From Bdellovibrio bacteriovorus HD100 (lineage in GTDB: Bacteria; Bdellovibrionota; Bdellovibrionia; Bdellovibrionales; Bdellovibrionaceae): 64,000 nucleotides of DNA. Position 1 is the first letter of the stretch; each line of letters begins with the position of its first letter. Below the pieces are notes generated by a model. The model saw only the letters and a program-made list of their open reading frames with translations. It had not been told where the DNA came from and ran no database searches. The stretch lies in NCBI RefSeq assembly GCF_000196175.1, contig NC_005363.1:744001-808000 (forward strand), in the 5' to 3' direction. Positions 19,392 through 32,005 of the stretch are shown one piece after another. A program made the translations under genes and the position numbers.

Positions 19392-21503
19392 TTAGCGAGA
19401 GATATAGTACACACCGTCTTCCGGTGCCGGGCAGGCTTGTTTGTACAGACGGCTGTGGGAAGGCACCATATAGATGCGGCTCCATTTATAGCCGTCAGCA
19501 GATATCACCGTGGCCGGGCGAGGGTCCAAATACACGATGTCACCTTGAGCAACCTGCCCACAGACAGTAGCGCTGGTGGACGGCTTGGCGCGGATGTTTC
19601 GTTTGTCCGCCATTTTGAACTGGCTGTAGCGGTTGTCGATATCTGTCGGCAAAGAATTCACCCAAGACGAGATGATCTTATTCACTCGTTCGCCTTCAGC
19701 AGTGCCAAAGATCTGCTCTTTGTCGGCCGGAGGCATCGGCGTGTAACCTTCCACGCGGGCAACGCTGCCATACAGTTTGCTGCGCTCAAGGTTCCCCGGC
19801 AGGATCCATTCATTTTTCACCAGGAAATCCAGATTGCTGAAGCGGTCCTTGCCGAAGTCCTGCGCCTGCATGTTGCCGTGACAACCCAGACAGTGTTTTT
19901 GAATCAGCTCGGTTTGAACTTTGCGATAGCCTTCTTCCAGAACAGGACTTTCTTTGATCGCGGATCTCCACGCCAGAAGCTGCACTTGCGGGTCGTTGGC
20001 GGCCGCGGCGCTCTTATCACAGGGCTCCTGGTGATTGGCGCTTGCGGATCTAGCCAGGCGCACGATGCTGCGAGTTTCACGGTCTTCGACAATCCACAGG
20101 GATCCATCCGAAGCTTCGGTGAATGCCACCGGAGCCCCCTTAGGGCGAATGCCTTTGACTTCGTCCCACTTGGAAATGATCTCGGTATAGGAACCGTGAC
20201 GGGCCATTCCGCCATGAGGAGTAAAGGCCTTGCGCGTGCTGCAGGCACCTTTTTGATTGAATCCAAAAGTGGAGCTGGATTCTTTCGCCAGTGGCAGACC
20301 ATTGCTGTCCACATTGTAGGCGACCAGACGATGTCCAGTGGGTTGATAGCCGTGCCACGTAACCAGCAACTTATCGCCGAAAAGATCACCGAACATCTCG
20401 CCCTTATAGTAAGCCATGTGCAAAGGGGCCACGTGAGGCGGCATCAACAACCACGGCGCTTGATAGTCACCGATACCGGAAGGATTGGTTTGGGAGCAGT
20501 CCACTGGTTTTTTGAACTGTTTGTGCAAAGGAAGGCTTTTATTTTCCGGGAATAGCCACTCGGGTGAAGTCGCGTGGAAGTTATAGCAATAGGGCCAGCC
20601 ATAGTGGCGACCGACGCCGTTATCCAGATCCACGACGTTGATTTCTTCGTAAGGTTCTTCCAGTTCGGCAAAGTCCCGGCTGTTTTCACCCTGAATCAGA
20701 TATCCTCTGTCTGAAATCGCCATGGCCATCGAGTTGCGCAAACCCAGGGCGGTTATTTCATAGTTTTTGACTCCACCCGCAGGAAGGTTTTTCAGAAGTT
20801 GGGCTGGGATGCGATAGATGGCGCCATTGCCTTGAGCTTGATCTTCAGGGCAGGATTTGTAGACGCCAGTTCCCTGAACCACGCAGTGATCGCTGGGTGA
20901 GCCGGAGTTGATGTAAAGGTCCCCGTTGCGCGGATCAAACACGAACTGCGAAAGCGGGTGCATATAGCCCTCTTTGCGCGCCAGATTTCCGACGACCATC
21001 GTCCAATCAGTGACCTGATTGTTTTTCAAATGAAATTTCGAAATGCGCGTGCGTTCACCGATATAGTAAAAACCATCCGGGCCCAGTGCCAGTCCATGCG
21101 GAGTTTCCAGATTCAATTTCAAAGTTTTGATTTCATAAGGGGCCGAGCCCGAACGAGTCAGCAGGAACAAGCGACCGTTTTGCGGGCTCCATCCGCCCAT
21201 GTCGACGACCAGAAAATCCTGGGTCCCGGCGATCTGCAAAATGGTGCGTGGTTTGATAAAGCTTTTGTCGTTGCTGCGATCCACGGCGCGATCCCGTGGC
21301 ATCACCATCCCCAGGCAAGTACCAGGCATGGTTTCCACCTGCAGGCGCGGGAAACCGTCGCAAGAGGTGTCTAATGGGTCGTAAAGATAGCCGCTTTTAT
21401 CCAGCACCATGCGCGCAGCCGCTGTTTTGCGGTCCGCAGTTTTTTGCAGAGACGTACACTGAACCAAGGAAAAAGCCAGAACCAGCCAGAATAAAACGCG
21501 CAT
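19392..21503 (-). CDS. Lipoprotein: sugar-dehydrogenase-like propeller, cytochrome c, SH3
   Basis: 703 residues with lipobox LVQC (Cys16). Residues about 85-500 form a glucose/sorbosone-dehydrogenase-type beta-propeller (LETPHGLALGPDGFYYIGE, FDPRNGDLYINSGSPSDH, GLRNSMAMAISDRGYLIQGE, YGWPYCYNFH, GMARHGSYTEI, VAFTEASDGSLWIVED). Residues about 535-620 are a mono-heme c-type cytochrome with CLGCH for the heme and a likely Met ligand in YTPMPPADK. The last 70 residues look like a bacterial SH3 domain (RNIRAKPSTSATVCGQVAQGD...GYKWSRIYM), which often binds wall material. Expected to be periplasmic and membrane anchored, oxidising a sugar or alcohol and passing electrons to its own heme; substrate unknown. 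GGGGA precedes the ATG. Confidence 0.8.
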   Translation of the reverse strand: MRVLFWLVLAFSLVQCTSLQKTADRKTAAARMVLDKSGYLYDPLDTSCDGFPRLQVETMPGTCLGMVMPRDRAVDRSNDKSFIKPRTILQIAGTQDFLVVDMGGWSPQNGRLFLLTRSGSAPYEIKTLKLNLETPHGLALGPDGFYYIGERTRISKFHLKNNQVTDWTMVVGNLARKEGYMHPLSQFVFDPRNGDLYINSGSPSDHCVVQGTGVYKSCPEDQAQGNGAIYRIPAQLLKNLPAGGVKNYEITALGLRNSMAMAISDRGYLIQGENSRDFAELEEPYEEINVVDLDNGVGRHYGWPYCYNFHATSPEWLFPENKSLPLHKQFKKPVDCSQTNPSGIGDYQAPWLLMPPHVAPLHMAYYKGEMFGDLFGDKLLVTWHGYQPTGHRLVAYNVDSNGLPLAKESSSTFGFNQKGACSTRKAFTPHGGMARHGSYTEIISKWDEVKGIRPKGAPVAFTEASDGSLWIVEDRETRSIVRLARSASANHQEPCDKSAAAANDPQVQLLAWRSAIKESPVLEEGYRKVQTELIQKHCLGCHGNMQAQDFGKDRFSNLDFLVKNEWILPGNLERSKLYGSVARVEGYTPMPPADKEQIFGTAEGERVNKIISSWVNSLPTDIDNRYSQFKMADKRNIRAKPSTSATVCGQVAQGDIVYLDPRPATVISADGYKWSRIYMVPSHSRLYKQACPAPEDGVYYISR

Positions 21504-23873: not shown

Positions 23874-24557
23874 ATGTTGGATTTTTCTGTTCTTAACTCA
23901 TCATTTGCCAACCCGACGTGGATTTCTATCATCTATGCTTTTTTGCTTAGTTTTATTCTGGGGACGGCCTTGGCCGTGGCCTATGTGAGGACCTTCCGCG
24001 GTCTTTCTTATTCATTGAACTTCCTGCATGGCCTGGTGCTGTTGCCGATTGTAATTGCTATTGCGATGCAGGCCATTGGAGACAATGTCGCTCGTGGTAT
24101 CGGCATGATTGGAGCGTTGTCTTTGCTGCGGTTTCGCACGAACGTCAAAGATCCGAGGGACATGTTCTTTATTTTTGCCTCGCTGGCGGTGGGCCTGGCT
24201 TCCGGGGTTCATGCCTATGGTATCGCCATTTTAGGAACCGTCTGCTTTATTCTGGCTTTGACTGTTCTGCAGAAGTCTCCCTTCGCTGCAGGTCCGCAGT
24301 TTGACGGTCTTTTGCGCCTGAATCTGTCCAGATCCGGTCAGGATCAGCGTGAAGTGGAAGGGGTGCTGGAAAAATCCTGCCGGCATTTCGCACTGGCCAC
24401 CATCCGGGAAATGGGCCAGGGGGAGCGGTTGGATTTTTCCTATCAGGTGCGCTTAAAGCCTCGTCAAACCTCGGCGGAACTTGTGGAAGAGCTGGGTCGT
24501 ATTTCTTCTGTGCGTGGCCTGAACTTTATGAATCAAGAATCTGTGATCGAGGTGTAA
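23874..24557 (+). CDS. DUF4956-family membrane protein
   Basis: 227 residues. Four membrane segments in the first 140 residues (IIYAFLLSFILGTALAVAYV, LNFLHGLVLLPIVIAIAMQA, MFFIFASLAVGLASGVHAYG, IAILGTVCFILALTVLQ) around the family signature GMIGALSLLRFRTNVKDPRD, then a cytoplasmic ferredoxin-like C-terminal domain. DUF4956 genes are commonly beside VTC-domain (polyphosphate polymerase) genes, as here. It starts a four-gene unit: the next start codon is one base after its stop. GGGGGAAG lies before the ATG. Biochemical role unknown; a partner or channel for the polymer made by the VTC enzyme is a reasonable guess. Confidence 0.85.
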   Translation: MLDFSVLNSSFANPTWISIIYAFLLSFILGTALAVAYVRTFRGLSYSLNFLHGLVLLPIVIAIAMQAIGDNVARGIGMIGALSLLRFRTNVKDPRDMFFIFASLAVGLASGVHAYGIAILGTVCFILALTVLQKSPFAAGPQFDGLLRLNLSRSGQDQREVEGVLEKSCRHFALATIREMGQGERLDFSYQVRLKPRQTSAELVEELGRISSVRGLNFMNQESVIEV

Positions 24558-24558
24558 A

Positions 24559-26307
24559 GTGAAACTAGGTGACGTCGTCGGGACCGAGAACCGTTTTCTG
24601 TTGGGCTGCTGGAGTGTGGCCGTGGTTCTGGTATTGATGCTGGGACTGGTGCTGGGGTCTGATCCCGTCAGCATTCTGGGGGTCGCAGAATCCCGCGAAT
24701 TTCAGGTGAACTTCGACAGTCCGGTTGAAATCAAACATATCTATGTGCTTCCCAGTCAGATAGTGCGCAAAGGGGATCTGCTGGCAGAACTGGGGCAGTC
24801 GGAATGGGAATCCCAGCTGCGTGTTCTGAAAAGCCGTTACGACAAGCTTAATGCTGAGATGCACTTGCGCCAGCAACTGGCCGGAGTCGTCAAAGACCTG
24901 GGTCATCTGGCTCCTTCAGCCGATCCATTGCTGGTGGAGCTTGAGGATGCAAGAAGGGAAATGGCCTTGATCGAAGGCCGCATGAAGAACCTTTTTGTCT
25001 TTGCCGAGGTTGACGGCGCCGTGGGTGCGGTGAACTTCAAAAATGGAGAAAAGGCGCCGGCGTTTGCTCCCTTGATTACGTTAGTTCCGCTCAATCCCAC
25101 TTATGTGAACGGTTACATCAACGAAAACCTGTCATCAACTTTGTCTGTGGGGCAGGTGGTGGAAGTCAGCTCTGCCGGAGGCAAGGTGGTGCGGGGTTCG
25201 GTGGTCAGTATCGGATCCCGTATTGTGCAGATTCCTGATCGTCTGTTGCGAATTCAAACTTTGCCGGCCTGGGGACGTGAAGTCGTGATCAAGATCCCCC
25301 GCACCAATGAGTTTTTGCTGGGAGAAAAGGTCTTTGTTCAGAAGAAATGGAACTTGTCATTGTTAAGTCTGGCCAATGCCGACGAAGCGACGCAGGCTCT
25401 CGAATCTCAGCAGCAAGATCCCCGGGAAATGGACATTCCGCTGAATATTGTTGAGACCTTCAAGCCCGAGATGTCAGGCGTGGTCTTCGTTCCGGAGCTC
25501 AAGCAGTTTGTTTTGGTTTCAGATGACTATCCTGACAACCGTCCGGTGCTGTTCCTGATGAATGAACAAGGCCAGATTCAACCCCACCAGATCCAGGTTT
25601 CAGGACTGCCGGCGATGGCGGACATTGAATCGGTTTCGGTCCAGGGCCAGCACCTGTACTTGCTAAGCTCTCTGTCAGCGACCAAAAAAGGCAAGCTTAA
25701 AGAGGAGCGTCAGATCTTCGCGCAGATCAAACGCAGTGGTCTGCGCTACAGCGTTGAAAACCATGTGGATCTGCGCAAGACGCTGTTGAGGGCCCTGAAA
25801 GACTCACAAGATCCGGTTTTGAAATCAGTCTATGAAGCTGATTTGAAGGTGGCTAAAGAGGGATTTGAAGTCGAAGGTCACGCCATTGACGACAAGGATT
25901 TGTATCTGTCGCTGAAAGGCCCCGTACTTCGTCGCAACGAAGGGCTTATCTTGAAAGTTTCGGACTTTGCCTCGGTCTTTGACGGGGGCCTGAAGCCGGC
26001 ACAAGTAACACTGGCCGCGCGGTTCGATCTGAAGTTGCCCCATCAGGATGTCGAGATGGTGCTGACGGATCTGATCAAGCAGGGGGATGCTTTCTATCTT
26101 GCTTCATCCTGTCGAGGAGCCTCGTGCAGTGCGATCTGGAAGGTGACTGCAGGCCAAACGGCCCCGGAGCTGCTGCATGAATTCCGTATGCGACATCTGG
26201 AAGGTTTGGCCCTTCATCCCCACACCCGTCAAATGTTTGCTGTCTTTGACAGCAAAAGCTCCAGTCAGTATGCCGTCGTCAGTCTTGTGGATAAAAGGAC
26301 GCCCTGA
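24559..26307 (+). CDS. HlyD-type membrane fusion protein fused to a beta-propeller
   Basis: 582 residues. Residues 1-35 hold one membrane segment (LLGCWSVAVVLVLMLGLVLG). About 40-275 is a HlyD/biotinyl-lipoyl layout: barrel-sandwich half motif (SPVEIKHIYVLPSQIVRKGDLLAEL), a coiled-coil hairpin (LRVLKSRYDKLNAEMHLRQQ, LLVELEDARREMALIEGRM), the second half (EVDGAVGAVNFKNGEKAPAF) and a beta-barrel. About 300-582 is a DUF3616-like propeller (EMSGVVFVPELKQFVLVSDD, DIESVSVQGQHLYLLSSLS, EVEGHAIDDKDLYLSLKGPV, HLEGLALHPHTRQMFAVFDS). The joining of the two is unusual. GTG start, one base after the DUF4956 stop; its stop overlaps the next ATG. It should bridge inner membrane and the TolC-like protein encoded next. 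Confidence 0.8.
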   Translation: MKLGDVVGTENRFLLGCWSVAVVLVLMLGLVLGSDPVSILGVAESREFQVNFDSPVEIKHIYVLPSQIVRKGDLLAELGQSEWESQLRVLKSRYDKLNAEMHLRQQLAGVVKDLGHLAPSADPLLVELEDARREMALIEGRMKNLFVFAEVDGAVGAVNFKNGEKAPAFAPLITLVPLNPTYVNGYINENLSSTLSVGQVVEVSSAGGKVVRGSVVSIGSRIVQIPDRLLRIQTLPAWGREVVIKIPRTNEFLLGEKVFVQKKWNLSLLSLANADEATQALESQQQDPREMDIPLNIVETFKPEMSGVVFVPELKQFVLVSDDYPDNRPVLFLMNEQGQIQPHQIQVSGLPAMADIESVSVQGQHLYLLSSLSATKKGKLKEERQIFAQIKRSGLRYSVENHVDLRKTLLRALKDSQDPVLKSVYEADLKVAKEGFEVEGHAIDDKDLYLSLKGPVLRRNEGLILKVSDFASVFDGGLKPAQVTLAARFDLKLPHQDVEMVLTDLIKQGDAFYLASSCRGASCSAIWKVTAGQTAPELLHEFRMRHLEGLALHPHTRQMFAVFDSKSSSQYAVVSLVDKRTP

Positions 26308-27467
26308 TGTTTTGGTCTTGGATCCTTTTGGGGGGACTTTCTTCTTTTGCGGTGACGCCCGAGCAGGTATTAAAAACAGCCTGGTCCGACACGGCTTATA
26401 CTTCGCAGGAAGAAATGCGAACGACCGACTCTCGTAATCCTCTGCGCAATGTTGAGGGCTTTGTCAGTGCTGAAAAAGAAGATGATAAAAATGAATATGA
26501 AGTCGGGTTGAAGTTTCAGTTTCGCTCCTGGCCGGAATGGAAGCTGGGGCCTGATTCCGAGCCGCGCAAGAAAGTTTTGAAAGAGGCTTCATTGGCGTGG
26601 GCTCTGCATGAACGGTATTTGAATCTGATTTCTTATGAAATCAGCCAGAAGAAACTGGCCGTTTTGAACAGTTCTATGAAACTGTCAGAAGGTTATTTGA
26701 AGGCACAAAGCCTTTCACTGCGGGCTGGGCGCACTTCGACCAAGTCCTTTTTGGGGGCCCAAGGGGACATCTATAAGCTGAAGCGCCTTGAAAGTGTGAT
26801 TGCCCAGGAAAATAAACTGGCGGCAAGAAAAATAAAATCCTGGGTTCCACAGTGGGGCGAAAGCCCGCTGGAGGGCTTTGACCTGCTCAGCGTCCAGGAG
26901 GTGGTCGACGCTCTCGGCAGTCAGCCAACGCCCGATGTTTCTTTAACCGCACGAATTTCCGAAACTGAGTTTAAAGACATTTCCCGGGAGCTTGAGATTC
27001 TACGGGGCCGCGAAGATCAGTGGGTGAAAGGACTGGATGTATCCCAAACCCATAAAGATGACGGAATCGGTTACAAAGTTGAACTGACTCTGCAGCTACC
27101 GCATCTGGGATCTGATGATCTGTCCCGGCAAAAGCAGAATGAATTGATTCTTAAAAAAGCGCTGAAACAAAAAGAGGCCGAAGACAGCAAGGACCACTTG
27201 TTAAGTCTGAAGAATCAAATTCAGAATCTGGTGGGCCTCTATAAAATGACCAGCCAGGGCTTGAAAGAAAGCCAAAAGATGAAAAACCAGGACACTTTGT
27301 CCGTGCTGGAAGGGCGCCTGTTGCAGGAGCAGACCGAGCTGGATTTGCTCAGTCAGCAACAAGAGATTCTGACTTTGTATGTGGAATATCTGCTGGAAAG
27401 TGAAAGGCTGGCGGCTGAGCCTGCAAAAAACCATCTGAGCAAAACCCTGAAGGTGGTGTCCTTGTGA
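26307..27467 (+). CDS. TolC-like outer-membrane-factor protein
   Basis: 386 residues with an N-terminal signal-like segment (MFWSWILLGGLSSFAVT). The rest has two long helical hairpin regions (SLAWALHERYLNLISYEISQKKLAVLNSS..., QNELILKKALKQKEAEDSKD...LLSQQQEILTLYVEYLLESERLAAE) separated by beta-strand-like stretches (EYEVGLKFQFRSW, GYKVELTLQLPHLGSDD), the two-fold layout of outer membrane factors. It is shorter than TolC (about 470) and divergent. It overlaps both neighbours (1 and 4 bases), so it is translated with the HlyD fusion and the VTC enzyme. Likely the outer-membrane exit or an envelope-spanning partner of the HlyD protein. Confidence 0.7.
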   Translation: MFWSWILLGGLSSFAVTPEQVLKTAWSDTAYTSQEEMRTTDSRNPLRNVEGFVSAEKEDDKNEYEVGLKFQFRSWPEWKLGPDSEPRKKVLKEASLAWALHERYLNLISYEISQKKLAVLNSSMKLSEGYLKAQSLSLRAGRTSTKSFLGAQGDIYKLKRLESVIAQENKLAARKIKSWVPQWGESPLEGFDLLSVQEVVDALGSQPTPDVSLTARISETEFKDISRELEILRGREDQWVKGLDVSQTHKDDGIGYKVELTLQLPHLGSDDLSRQKQNELILKKALKQKEAEDSKDHLLSLKNQIQNLVGLYKMTSQGLKESQKMKNQDTLSVLEGRLLQEQTELDLLSQQQEILTLYVEYLLESERLAAEPAKNHLSKTLKVVSL

Positions 27468-28249
27468 GCGGCCCGGTTTCCCCTCTGGCTCTGGAGCGAT
27501 ATGAATTAAAGTACCTGATTCCGGCAAGTCTGGTCGAGCCGATCTCGCGGTTCGTGGAAACGTATTGTGAAATGGATTACTACTCGACGGTTTCGCCAGA
27601 CAAACACTACACCATCAACAGCCTTTATCTGGACACACCCAGCTTGTACCTGCTGCGGTTCAAGGAATCGGCCAATGCCTATAGCTTTAATATGCGGATC
27701 CGTTCCTATGGAGACAACCCCAAGCCGCCCTATTTCTTCGAGATTAAATACAAACTGCGTGAGTTCGTGCGCAAGAAGCGCGCACTGGTGCATGATGAAA
27801 ACTGGGCGGATATTCTGGAGTGGGGAGCTATCCCGGCGCACATCCAGGGGAGTTCTCGCGGCAATCTCGAAGAGTTCCTACGTGTGAAAATGACTTATAA
27901 TGTGGGCCCGGTGATTTTGACCCAGTACCGGCGCAAGGCCTATCTTTCTGTTGTGGATGATTATGCCCGAGTGACCTTCGATCGGGACTTGCGCTATCAA
28001 GAGATGAATGAGTGGTGTGTGCGGCCGAACGCTCATCTGTTAAGCCACTATGACCATCCTGATTCCTTTGAAGAGCCCGGATGCAATGTGGTCCTGGAGC
28101 TGAAGTGTGAAAAAAAGATTCCTTACTGGATGGTGGATCTGATTAGGCGCTTTGAACTGGAAAGTGGCTCGTTCTCGAAGTTTGGCAACTCGATGTTAAC
28201 TCTTTTTGGGGTGCCTGAGGTCTTATCCCCAGGCCCGTTGTATCTTTAG
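27464..28249 (+). CDS. VTC-domain protein (polyphosphate polymerase family)
   Basis: 261 residues, a stand-alone VTC tunnel domain of the triphosphate-tunnel superfamily. Seen: ERYELKYLIP at the start (basic and acidic tunnel residues), SLYLDTPSLYLLRFKES, the Arg strand FNMRIRSYGD, the Lys strand FFEIKYKLREFVRKKRALV, TQYRRKAYLSVVDDYARVTFDRDL, and NVVLELKCE plus GSFSKFGNSM at the end. Eukaryotic VTC4 uses this fold to make polyphosphate from ATP; bacterial members are found with DUF4956 and CotH-like kinases. The GTG start overlaps the TolC-like stop (GTGA). It faces a convergent kinase-like gene. Confidence 0.88.
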   Translation: MSGPVSPLALERYELKYLIPASLVEPISRFVETYCEMDYYSTVSPDKHYTINSLYLDTPSLYLLRFKESANAYSFNMRIRSYGDNPKPPYFFEIKYKLREFVRKKRALVHDENWADILEWGAIPAHIQGSSRGNLEEFLRVKMTYNVGPVILTQYRRKAYLSVVDDYARVTFDRDLRYQEMNEWCVRPNAHLLSHYDHPDSFEEPGCNVVLELKCEKKIPYWMVDLIRRFELESGSFSKFGNSMLTLFGVPEVLSPGPLYL

Positions 28250-29610
28250 ATATTGCACGGTGTGACCGGAGGACGCGCTCCCGGCAGGTATGTCTCCAGA
28301 TCCAGATCAAACTTCAACTGACCGGTGCGGCAGGTGCCCGTCAGGATCTCTTTGGCTTTTCTGGCGTTGTCCTGCAAAGATCTGTAGTCCTTGTCAGTAA
28401 AGAGCATTTCCGTTTTGAAGTAGTCCTTGGTGGCAGGATGTGCCAGCGATTTTTCAAATGCCATAAAGTAGCGATAGGTCAGATAGCTCATGTGACGAAC
28501 TTTTTCCAGAACACTGAAAGCTCTCATCATATTGTCTTTGATAAACCCACAATCGTTGTCCTTCAGGACCATTTCTTTTAAGACCACGGCTGGCCGGCCC
28601 GCCATTTGGCGCTTTTCTTCCGCCGGCACGACAATCTGGCCTTCCACCAGCTCGGCGTCGGATTTGGAGCGCTCAATGCGATGGGTGGAAGGGTTGATAG
28701 AATACCAATAGAATTTGTAGTGAATGTTCCCGATGCGATCCTGCTGGTTCATCAGGGTGTCGATCAGAACCATGTCGGCGACGTCTTTCATTTGAATCAC
28801 ATCCTGAGCCACGCGGGTGAACTCAGTGGAACCGACAAGCTGGGCCACGGTTTTGGAGCTGGCCACCTTCAGGAAGGGCTTTTGTTTTAGGAAACGCTGA
28901 TAGCGGCTGTTGTAGCTGCCACGCCCACTGACATCATAGTAGATCTCTTCATTTTTTACGTTGTCAGAAAGTCCGCCATAAAGCTGAGTCAACGTGCTGT
29001 CCACCAGTTGGGGAAAGGCGCCGGGGTTCAAATGCATTTGTCCCAGTTTGCGCCAACCCTCAGCGATAGTGTCTGTTGAATCACGAAGGGCATGCACTGC
29101 TTTGGTGGTCAGCTGATTGTGAACGTTCAAGTCCATAGTGCGGATCACGGCTACAGGAACCCGGCCAACCCCGCCCAGAATGCGGGACATATGATAATAG
29201 GCAAGGATCGACGGGGTGTAAGAACAAGTGATGGTCTGTTTGAACTTGGCTTCGGTTTTCACACCCATTTTTTTGACATTGCAGTCAGAAGCATCAATGG
29301 CCTCTTTGTCGTATTTGGCATTCGGAGCAAGCAGCAGAACGCCGGGATTTGTGGAGTTGTATTTTGGACAAATACCCACGAAGCGATAGAAGTCATAACC
29401 ACACAGAGTGCTCTCTTTACCAGTGTCCTCGCTGCGATAGGCAGCCCCCGGCCACTTTTTAGGAACAACACAAAGTTCACGCACTCCGTAAGGGGAAAGA
29501 TGTTCTGTGCGCGTTTCTCCTTTGAGATTTGCAAGATCGATCGCGAGAGCACTTGAGAAGGAAACCAGGACGGATATAACAGCAGAAGAACAGACTGCGA
29601 CGAGCCTCAT
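28246..29610 (-). CDS. Exported kinase-like protein (FAM20/HipA/CotH-like), predicted
   Basis: 454 residues with a signal peptide (MRLVAVCSSAVISVLVSFSS then ALA). The C-terminal half carries what looks like an atypical kinase core: a membrane-helix-like STPSILAYY region, MNQQDRIGNIHYKFYW (catalytic-loop-like Asp291 and Asn295) and MVLKDNDCGF (metal-binding-like Asp351/Asp353), the order seen in FAM20, HipA and CotH kinases. Cys pairs in the N-terminal part (ELCVVP, STLCGYDFYR, VGICPKY) suggest disulfides in the periplasm. CotH-type kinases are known neighbours of VTC genes. It is convergent with the VTC operon, overlapping by 4 bases. The kinase assignment is my motif reading, not proof; substrate unknown. 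Confidence 0.55.
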   Translation of the reverse strand: MRLVAVCSSAVISVLVSFSSALAIDLANLKGETRTEHLSPYGVRELCVVPKKWPGAAYRSEDTGKESTLCGYDFYRFVGICPKYNSTNPGVLLLAPNAKYDKEAIDASDCNVKKMGVKTEAKFKQTITCSYTPSILAYYHMSRILGGVGRVPVAVIRTMDLNVHNQLTTKAVHALRDSTDTIAEGWRKLGQMHLNPGAFPQLVDSTLTQLYGGLSDNVKNEEIYYDVSGRGSYNSRYQRFLKQKPFLKVASSKTVAQLVGSTEFTRVAQDVIQMKDVADMVLIDTLMNQQDRIGNIHYKFYWYSINPSTHRIERSKSDAELVEGQIVVPAEEKRQMAGRPAVVLKEMVLKDNDCGFIKDNMMRAFSVLEKVRHMSYLTYRYFMAFEKSLAHPATKDYFKTEMLFTDKDYRSLQDNARKAKEILTGTCRTGQLKFDLDLETYLPGARPPVTPCNI

Positions 29611-29733
29611 CAGACCCCCTTTTTTTTAAGTGAGCATTTAGATCCTTCTTCGTTTATATCGAGGAATGGAATGTATAAATACTTACAAGTTCAGAAGGTC
29701 AGACTGGGATAGCTGTGTTCTCTAACAGAAGGC

Positions 29734-30477
29734 TTAGGAAGGAGTTTCGTGGAACCGCAAGACCTTCCCCAGGAAGGTCCGGGTTCTTTCGCTCTCAGCG
29801 CGGCTGAAGATCTTCTCGGGTGGTCCTTGCTCGACGACCTGGCCTTCATCCATGAATAAGATGCGATCACTGACTTGTCGGGCGAAACCCATCTCGTGGG
29901 TGACAATGACCATGGTCTTTCCGCTGTGAGCCAGCGATTTGATCACATCCAAAACTTCTCCAACCATTTCCGGATCCAGAGCTGAAGTGGGCTCGTCAAA
30001 CAACATCACTTGCGGTTCCATGGCCAGTGCTCGTGCAATGGCGACACGCTGTTGCTGTCCTCCGGAAAGTTCGTGTGGATAGCTGTCGGCTTTTTCAGCC
30101 AAGCCCACACGGGCCAGCAGTTCCCGGGCCTTGGCTTCCGCGGCCTCCTTGGAAAGGTGTTTCACCTTCCTGGGGGCCAGCATAATATTCTGCAACGCCG
30201 TTTTGTGCGGGAACAGATTGAAGCGCTGAAATACCATGCCCACGTGAGCCCGCAGTTTGTTCAGATCCGTCTGCGGGTTGGTGACCTCAAAGCCGTCGAC
30301 CTTGATGGTGCCCGCTTGGGCGATTTCCAGGGCGTTGATGCATCTTAAAAAGGTGCTTTTGCCAGAGCCGGACGGTCCAATCACACACACCACTTCGTTG
30401 TCCTTGATTTCACAGGACACGTTTTTAAGAACCTGGCGGCTGCCAAAGAATTTGTCCAAGGCTTGAATCTGAATCAT
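29734..30477 (-). CDS. Polar amino acid ABC transporter, ATPase
   Basis: 247 residues. Walker [15 protein letters not shown]-loop [16 protein letters not shown], signature [15 protein letters not shown], Walker [15 protein letters not shown] and switch His in [10 protein letters not shown]; the GlnQ/HisP/ArtP subgroup. Last gene of a three-gene importer operon, its ATG overlapping the permease stop. Energises uptake through the permease encoded next to it. Amino acid specificity cannot be read; useful for a predator living on prey protein. Confidence 0.95.
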
Positions 30478-31217
30478 GCGGATTGGTACCTTTTCTCAAG
30501 ACGGTGAACCACAAAGGACATGCCCAGGGTGATGATCAGATAAATCAACGAAATAAACAGATATGGTTCCCAATAGCGGGCATAGGCTCCCGCAGCGGTG
30601 CGGGCGGCGTAAGCCAGTTCTGCCAAACCGATGGCCGACACCAAAGAAGAATCCTTCAGCAGGGTGATGGCTTCATTTCCCAACGGAGGCAGCATGCGAC
30701 GAAACGCCTGCGGAATGATGATGGACTTCATCGTGTGGAAGTAACTCAGGCCCAGAGATCTTGCCGCTTCAAATTGGCCGCGATCAATGGACTGGATCCC
30801 GGCACGGAATATTTCGGCGATATAAGCCGCTGAATTAAGACTTAATGCCAACGCACCGGAAATAAGCGCGCCGTATTCCCGTTTCAGGTAAAGAGCCATG
30901 TCACCCGAGATCAGCAGCCCGTCTTCGGGATGAATCAGCAAAGGGACCAGGGCAAAATGAATCAGCAGGATTTGCACAAACAGGGGAGTGCCACGGAAAA
31001 AGCCAATATAGATTTGCGATGGCAGACGGACGAACAAGTGAGTCGGCCAGCGCCAGGGGCCACGTTCTATGCGGGCGATTTTCCCCAGTCCCAAAAACAG
31101 GCCCAGGATGGTGCCAAAAAAGATTCCGATCAAAGTCAGTTGCAGGGTGGTGGCCAGCCCCTGCATGAAGAGAGGCCAGTATTCGATGATGATGTCAGTG
31201 CGAAACCACGAAAACAT
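30474..31217 (-). CDS. Polar amino acid ABC transporter, permease
   Basis: 247 residues with five or so membrane segments and the HisM/GlnP signature: [58 protein letters not shown] and the EAA loop [32 protein letters not shown]. It sits between the binding lipoprotein (1-base overlap) and the ATPase (4-base overlap). Probably works as a homodimer since there is only one permease gene. Confidence 0.94.
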
Positions 31218-32005
31218 CAGTTCTTCTTTTCTCCGAAGTATTTTTTGAAGATGCTGTCATAGGTGCCGTCGGCTTTGATGGCCGCCAGCCCGTCATTGAT
31301 CTTCTTCAGCAGGTCTGTGTTGCCCTTTTTAACCGCGATGCCATATTGCTCTTTCGAGAATGTGGTGTCTGACAGGACCTTGAAGTCTTTCGGGTTGTTG
31401 GCAAAGAAGTTGTTGATGACGCCGTTGTCGGCAACAACAGCATCCACTCCGCCGTTGATCAGTTCTTGCAAAGCCAAAGGGGTGCCTTCAAAGCGTTTGA
31501 TGTTCGAGCTGGCTCGGCCCAGCAGGCGGGTGACGACTTCGTCTCCGGTGGTGCCGATCTGAACACCGACCTTCAGTTTTTTCAAGTCATCGAACTTGCT
31601 GACCTTGGAGCTGTTGGGAACCGCAATGAGCTGAACGGCATCAAAATAGGGCTCTGAAAAGTCCATTGTTTTTTTGCGTTCGTCATTGATGGTGATGGCG
31701 GAAATCAGGATGTCGCGATCACCGGACTCCAGTTGGCTGAACAGGCCTTCCCAGGGGGTGTTCACTATATTCAGAGTCAGGCCTTGTTTGGCCGCGATGG
31801 CTTGAATGATCTCGATGTCGAAGCCACTGATGCTTTTGTCGGCGTTTTCGATTTCAAATGGGGCGTAGGCGGCATCCGTTCCAACGGTGAGTTCTTTTTT
31901 TGCTGATGTTTTTGCCGCAGTGTCAGCGGTCCCGGACTCTTTTTTGGTGCAACCCAAAGTCATTAGCAGAAGGCAACTGGTGATAAGAAGCGAAAGTCGT
32001 TTCAT
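31217..32005 (-). CDS. Amino-acid-binding lipoprotein of ABC importer
   Basis: 262 residues. Lipobox in MKRLSLLITSCLLLMTLGCT (Cys19). Family 3 solute-binding fold: LTVGTDAAYAPFEIENADKS, ISGFDIEIIQAIAAKQGL, SGDRDILISAITINDERKKTMDFSEPYF, LKVGVQIGTTGDEV and DAVVADNGV. It is first in the operon and catches the ligand in the periplasm. The Asp and Arg expected to bind amino-acid groups lie in these segments; the side-chain specificity is unclear. Confidence 0.94.
   Translation of the reverse strand: MKRLSLLITSCLLLMTLGCTKKESGTADTAAKTSAKKELTVGTDAAYAPFEIENADKSISGFDIEIIQAIAAKQGLTLNIVNTPWEGLFSQLESGDRDILISAITINDERKKTMDFSEPYFDAVQLIAVPNSSKVSKFDDLKKLKVGVQIGTTGDEVVTRLLGRASSNIKRFEGTPLALQELINGGVDAVVADNGVINNFFANNPKDFKVLSDTTFSKEQYGIAVKKGNTDLLKKINDGLAAIKADGTYDSIFKKYFGEKKN

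Follow-up and report, generated by a model that had tools for sequence, protein, structure and literature searches.

The window analysed here, a stretch of 64,000 nucleotides from Bdellovibrio bacteriovorus HD100 (positions 744001-808000 of a single-contig genome of 3,782,950 bases), contains a four-gene operon encoding a DUF4956 membrane protein, a HlyD-type periplasmic adaptor, a TolC-like protein and a VTC-domain protein. The operon faces a convergent gene, KIN1, whose product is predicted to be an exported kinase of Fam20-like fold. The co-inheritance of operon and kinase points to an undescribed handling of phosphate compounds outside the cell. We propose, as a plausible reading somewhat short of probable, that the operon constitutes a synthesis-coupled trans-envelope exporter of polyphosphate, coupled to surface phosphorylation by the exported kinase. 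We favour this reading because the VTC active site appears complete, no classical transporter accompanies the genes, the adaptor is found, in the loci sampled, only where an outer membrane exists, and the cell possesses a separate PPK1.

Gene anatomy of the locus

The original prediction named five genes: DUF4956, a HlyD-type adaptor, a TolC-like protein, VTC and a convergent kinase-like gene. All five are confirmed, at the following positions (aa, amino acids).

23874..24557, + strand: DUF4956 membrane protein, 227 aa (Pfam, alignment, hydropathy scan)
24559..25431, + strand: HlyD-type periplasmic adaptor part, residues 1-291, with one N-terminal membrane anchor (HlyD models, transmembrane segment, PDB relatives)
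25432..26307, + strand: propeller-like C-terminal part of the adaptor protein, residues 292-582 (weak DUF3616 and Phytase-like matches)
26307..27467, + strand: TolC-like protein, 386 aa, predicted outer-membrane channel (AlphaFold2 model, Foldseek, Z score of about 21)
27464..28249, + strand: VTC catalytic domain, 261 aa, cytosolic, candidate polyphosphate polymerase (Pfam, profile match to Vtc4)
28246..29610, - strand: KIN1, predicted exported Fam20-like kinase, 454 aa, convergent with the operon (AlphaFold2 model, fold matches, distribution)

The operon proper spans 23874-28249 on the + strand. The DUF4956 stop and the adaptor start are separated by 1 bp (TAA-A-GTG), the adaptor and TolC-like genes overlap in TGATG, and the TolC-like and VTC genes overlap in GTGA; these junctions suggest translational coupling of the four genes. 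The VTC gene and the convergent KIN1 gene have 4 bp in common. Scans for promoters and terminators returned matches at chance level only. Relatives with adaptors just 26-94% identical to the window adaptor retain this order of the four genes, which is therefore not a product of chance.

The VTC and DUF4956 proteins

The VTC protein matches Pfam PF09359 with an E-value of 1.6e-52 (178.8 bits, cut-off 23, positions 2-235 of 235), and a profile built from 26 Bdellovibrionota VTC sequences matches 3g3q, a crystal structure of Vtc4, over almost the full length (9e-24). Residues E14, K16, R78, R80, Y82, E93, K95, K104, Y155, R157, R169, D173, E212, K214 and K239 are invariant in the 26 sequences. 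Aligned with Vtc4 and read against its catalytic residues, the protein keeps the active-site basic residues K16, R78, R80, K95, R157 and K239 as well as the metal-binding E212; judged from this alignment, the active site is complete. The protein consists of the catalytic domain alone, with no SPX domain, no fused transmembrane part and no transmembrane segment of its own.

A PPK1 separate from VTC is present in 23 of the 24 Bdellovibrio genomes, including the window genome. VTC is thus not required just to make storage polyphosphate, and its role as the sole polyphosphate enzyme of the cell was rejected. The only Bdellovibrio genome lacking a PPK1 match (G004) nevertheless harbors the VTC operon and a KIN gene. 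VTC is generally presented as the polyphosphate synthase of eukaryotes; a paper from 2026 lists it under Eukarya only (PMC13318637).

The DUF4956 protein is recognised by its Pfam model above the cut-off (E = 1.3e-13). A simple hydropathy scan shows about five hydrophobic segments, and the protein has a motif whose residues A81, R86 and R88 are invariant in the alignment. In the NELoc-2 locus of C. perfringens (CP4_0460-CP4_0465), two proteins of 222-226 aa annotated as tubulin/FtsZ GTPases are encoded beside VTC and CotH genes (PMC2879425); by size and place these may be DUF4956 proteins.

The adaptor and the predicted outer-membrane channel

The N-terminal part of the adaptor protein is matched by HlyD_3 above the Pfam cut-off (E = 1.3e-5), and HlyD_3 and HlyD_D23 match all 20 of 20 adaptor homologs. 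A transmembrane segment covers residues 14-32, and the PDB relatives are MacA and EmrA. The HlyD part of the predicted HlyD-propeller protein is therefore upheld; the propeller tail is weakly assigned, by a DUF3616 match (2.3e-7) in the window protein and a Phytase-like match in 8 of 14 homologs (best value 8e-4), and is missing from some relatives (e.g. locus L046). Sequence searches with the tail gave no PDB relative; acidic and basic residues are conserved along it in the alignment. Proteins that consist of the tail only, without the HlyD part (approximately positions 293-586 of the adaptor model), are encoded at G007:C1:288214-289056, G030:C6:3126-3989, G053:C5:142529-143392, G034:C2:18188-19036 and G032:C1:30681-31484.

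For both the TolC-like and the kinase-like protein, sequence searches against Pfam, NCBIfam and PDB gave no usable match, hence their predicted folds alone resolved them; AlphaFold2 structure predictions cover these two proteins. The TolC-like model (predicted local distance difference test, pLDDT, of 83.0) matches TolC with a Foldseek E-value of 2.7e-12 and a Z score of about 21 over 356-376 residues, and contains the two helix-strand-strand-helix repeats of the TolC fold. The OEP family is weakly matched in 3 of 17 homologs.

Adaptor and channel together resemble tripartite pumps and type I secretion systems, which likewise combine a TolC fold with a HlyD-type (HlyD/AcrA/MacA) adaptor. Unlike these, the operon includes no ABC, MFS or RND component, a DUF4956 protein and a polymer-synthase-like enzyme stand in its place, and the adaptor has a propeller-like tail. 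No other transporter gene is found in the operon, and none recurs in the 20 closest neighbourhoods of relatives. Genes of an ABC transporter of the amino-acid-importer type (29734-32005) were considered as the transporter of the pump and rejected, being located beside the operon in just 4 loci.

A predicted exported Fam20-like kinase

The AlphaFold2 model of KIN1 (pLDDT 84.7) yields Fam20 structures as its first 15 Foldseek matches (E = 3.6e-6), and superimposes on hydra Fam20 with a Z score of 17.0 (root-mean-square deviation 4.1, 265 residues aligned); the Z scores to other folds are 14 (PI4KII), 10.1 (CotH) and 9 (HipA). In 13 homologs, D291, R292, N295, D351, N352, D353, K122 and K124 are invariant. 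In the model D291 and N295 come after a long helix, a strand holds K122 and K124, and D351-N-D353 comes after a strand, at the expected place of the metal-binding motif. A hydrophobic export-type signal covers residues 6-24 at the N-terminus. The supposition that the kinase-like core has an ATP-binding-type kinase fold is borne out in the form of a predicted Fam20 fold, and we regard KIN1 as a predicted exported kinase, its activity being read from the modelled fold.

With the Fam20 kinases of the secretory pathway KIN1 shares the predicted fold, a catalytic-loop D-R and a later motif placed as in a kinase, and export. It differs in lacking a Pfam-level match, in having DRI where Fam20B has D-x-H, and in its bacterial origin and lipoprotein phosphatase-like partners. 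The Pfam Fam20 model has no match at E up to 1 in the 13 homologs, and no Pfam family covers KIN1. CotH kinases are similar in being exported, in standing beside VTC-DUF4956 and in their broad fold; KIN proteins, however, have no match to the CotH model PF08757, which finds none in KIN1 or anywhere in the window genome, and are structurally nearer to Fam20. A literature search, with subscription papers outside its reach, found no description of VTC together with HlyD/TolC and none of a bacterial Fam20-like exported kinase.

A second Fam20-like paralog, KIN2 (568 aa), occurs in the window genome at approximately 2.4136-2.4164 Mb together with its partner gene (L150:7581-10439). In 7 of 7 KIN2 loci this partner, a lipoprotein-like calcineurin-type phosphoesterase of about 376 aa, directly precedes KIN2; the two that were tested match Metallophos with 9e-20 and 1e-20. 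KIN1 also has a usual neighbour, a lipoprotein-like protein encoded divergently from it (c5; L033:10853-11743 and 12 further loci). c5 has an invariant HCWNGWH loop of protein tyrosine phosphatase type, from which the usual arginine is missing, and its matches to Y_phosphatase2 are weak. It occurs in 33 genomes of the class, 32 of which also harbor a KIN gene. c5 is absent from the window genome (window 29611-29733); the window genome has lost it, while the close relatives G006 and G009 keep it between KIN1 and the ABC genes.

Distribution of the operon and its adaptor

The class was sampled with 144 genomes, 24 of them from the genus Bdellovibrio. VTC is present in 37 of the 144, and the DUF4956-adaptor-TolC-VTC operon in 26 (by adaptor search, with propeller-only matches excluded and some operons at contig ends), in agreement with the expectation of conserved co-occurrence in relatives. 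The VTC neighbourhoods of the class are of two kinds: the four-gene kind around Bdellovibrio and its relatives, and VTC with DUF4956 but without such an adaptor, several with CotH nearby.

A DUF4956 scan of GTDB genomes, itself a sample, gave at least 80 loci from many phyla. Among the matches listed, VTC-DUF4956 has an adaptor gene as neighbour in 26 of 30 diderm loci (Bacteroidota, Ignavibacteria, Zixibacteria, Neomarinimicrobiota, KSB1 and others) versus 0 of 47 monoderm or archaeal loci, most of which have the exported kinase CotH instead. The corresponding Fisher value of 1e-16 is descriptive only, since the loci share descent and diderm or monoderm status was taken from record titles. 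The restriction to diderm loci is as expected if the adaptor crosses the outer membrane. Among the matches listed, 36 of 39 Firmicutes loci and 9 of 30 diderm loci have CotH close to VTC; 7 loci combine VTC, adaptor and CotH. The "HlyD" proteins of other phyla (about 357 aa) were found by iterated profiles and, as two had no Pfam match, were checked separately: NCBIfam adaptor models match 18 of 18, profile comparison gives a probability of 96%, and the PDB relatives are MacA and CzcB-like proteins.

It had been supposed that the joining of VTC to a HlyD/TolC pair is unusual. For HlyD these counts do not bear this out; the joining is the rule in diderms. For TolC the supposition stands, as a linked TolC gene was found in Bdellovibrionota and, by a search that is weak for divergent TolC proteins, in a single locus of Bacteroidota (L074). 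What sets the present locus apart is that a TolC gene is linked and CotH is absent.

Co-inheritance of operon and kinase

Of the 24 genomes of the genus Bdellovibrio, 16 have the operon, and these are precisely the 16 that have KIN (Fisher 1.4e-6, ignoring descent). One of these (G019) was considered as having a kinase without an operon, which was rejected: its contig ends inside the TolC gene, and as DUF4956 and the adaptor are present it is counted with the operon. On a tree of a single marker, the recA region, the state changes at least 4 times on supported branches, and 6 times on the best tree; since operon and kinase share one distribution, every change is concordant. In G006 the RecA match is split at C1:3287626-3288330 (L193, L195), with model positions 183-211 missing between abutting stretches, which reflects either an in-frame internal deletion or an assembly error.

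The association extends beyond adjacency, as the original prediction of a link would have it. G007 and G010 retain both kinase and operon, at widely separated positions. G023 has an operon 80-96% identical to that of the window and no KIN1; instead, KIN2 is located directly upstream of the operon, co-directional and with its phosphoesterase partner gene. This KIN2 is about 25% identical to KIN1 and 75% identical to the unlinked second copy in the window genome, and KIN2 orthologs outside G023 are not linked to the operon. Two paralogs have thus come to adjoin the same operon, each at a different end. Beyond Bdellovibrio, operon and kinase are weakly associated (KIN gene in 6 of 10 operon genomes, Fisher 0.013).

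Proposed mechanism

In the proposed exporter, the cytosolic VTC protein would build a phosphate polymer, most likely polyphosphate from ATP. DUF4956 would take the place of an ABC, MFS or RND transporter and conduct the growing chain through the inner membrane, from where the HlyD-propeller adaptor and the TolC-like channel would carry it over the periplasm and the outer membrane. The predicted Fam20-like kinase, accompanied in relatives by lipoprotein phosphatase-like partners, would act in the same envelope process, probably by phosphorylating surface proteins or glycans, and would occupy the position of the exported kinase CotH in other bacteria.

A precedent for synthesis-coupled export is the yeast VTC complex: it produces polyphosphate at one face of a membrane, and the chain is believed to cross through a channel formed by the complex itself (PMC10657179). 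The window locus resembles this eukaryotic complex (Vtc4 with Vtc1 and Vtc2/3) in the catalytic VTC domain, its active-site residues and a membrane partner that could conduct the product. It differs in that VTC lacks SPX and a fused transmembrane part, the partner is the unrelated-looking DUF4956, and an adaptor and an outer-membrane channel are added.

Several observations weigh against the exporter. The C-terminal part of DUF4956 looks regulatory rather than transporting, and an ACT domain is reported in the S. intermedius DUF4956 protein (PMC12345266). In the same study VTC deletion is not among the mutants reported to alter aggregation or Pel (PMC12345266). Our literature search found no biochemical evidence on bacterial VTC proteins of this kind. 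Most loci of other phyla have no linked TolC gene, by a search that is weak for divergent TolC proteins. KIN relatives occur in 45 of the 144 class genomes, most of them without VTC, and in the pairing test (24 genomes, one marker tree) the supported changes are too few for significance: with 4 pairs, a sign test cannot go below the p = 0.125 obtained.

If true, the proposal gives VTC and DUF4956 a testable role through a recurrent operon, describes an export machine without a classical transporter, and prompts one to ask which surface molecules of a predatory bacterium are phosphorylated. A more specific extension, which we consider doubtful, is that exported polyphosphate serves as the phosphate and energy source for kinases outside the cell, where ATP is scarce. 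It would explain the recurrence of VTC-DUF4956 with CotH and Fam20-like kinases, as well as the phosphatase-like partners in Bdellovibrio.

Alternative explanations

An unlikely alternative to polyphosphate export is a surface-glycan module, in which the operon exports, modifies or regulates a polysaccharide, much as the CotH, VTC and DUF4956 genes next to Pel clusters seem to do, the kinase phosphorylates sugars in the manner of Fam20B, and VTC, instead of synthesising what is exported, provides a phosphate compound or signal. Genes for CotH, a polyphosphate polymerase and DUF4956 are accessory genes of Gram-positive Pel clusters, so that a VTC-DUF4956 pair with an exported kinase adjoins Pel genes there (PMC7112168). 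In S. intermedius (SIR_1592-1594), deletion of the DUF4956 or cotH gene alters the Pel level and aggregation (PMC12345266), and Fam20B itself is a sugar kinase (PMC5865150). The window locus is similar to the Pel accessory set in that VTC and DUF4956 are adjacent with an exported kinase nearby; it differs in having a Fam20-like kinase and no CotH, and in the additional HlyD-propeller adaptor and TolC-like channel. That an adaptor and a channel belong to the transcription unit of VTC speaks against such a module, as does the lack of any recurrent glycosyltransferase or synthase in the 20 closest neighbourhoods; no polysaccharide gene was recognised among the recurrent operon neighbours in these 20, the Pel models themselves not having been searched.

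Less probable still is that VTC acts as a hydrolase of triphosphate or polyphosphate, or as a nucleotide sensor, and regulates the export of another small molecule or ion by DUF4956, adaptor and TolC, for example in the homeostasis of phosphate or magnesium. The triphosphate-tunnel superfamily, of which VTC is a member, includes hydrolases, and the N-terminal ExK of VTC is closer to the hydrolase branch than to the TxK of Vtc4. DUF4956 moreover has weak matches to MgtC-like proteins (2.9e-5) and MgtC/SapB (3.6e-6). Against this, VTC matches the VTC family over its full length and the CYTH families of Pfam not at all, and every expected polymerase-type basic tunnel residue is kept in the 26 sequences.

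That the kinase is an unrelated neighbour sharing its distribution with the operon by hitchhiking on one genomic island is the least probable of the three; it draws on the commonness of KIN relatives without VTC elsewhere in the class, on the few supported independent changes and on adjacency in most genomes, where a single deletion can remove both, but is countered by the retention of the separated genes in G007 and G010, by the other paralog at the other end of the operon in G023, and by CotH, another exported kinase, filling the neighbour role at other VTC loci.

Neighbouring genes

Upstream of the operon, the window encodes a lipoprotein-like protein of 703 aa (19392-21503, - strand) that combines a glucose/sorbosone-dehydrogenase-like propeller with weakly matched stretches of planctomycete-type cytochrome c and SH3-like character.

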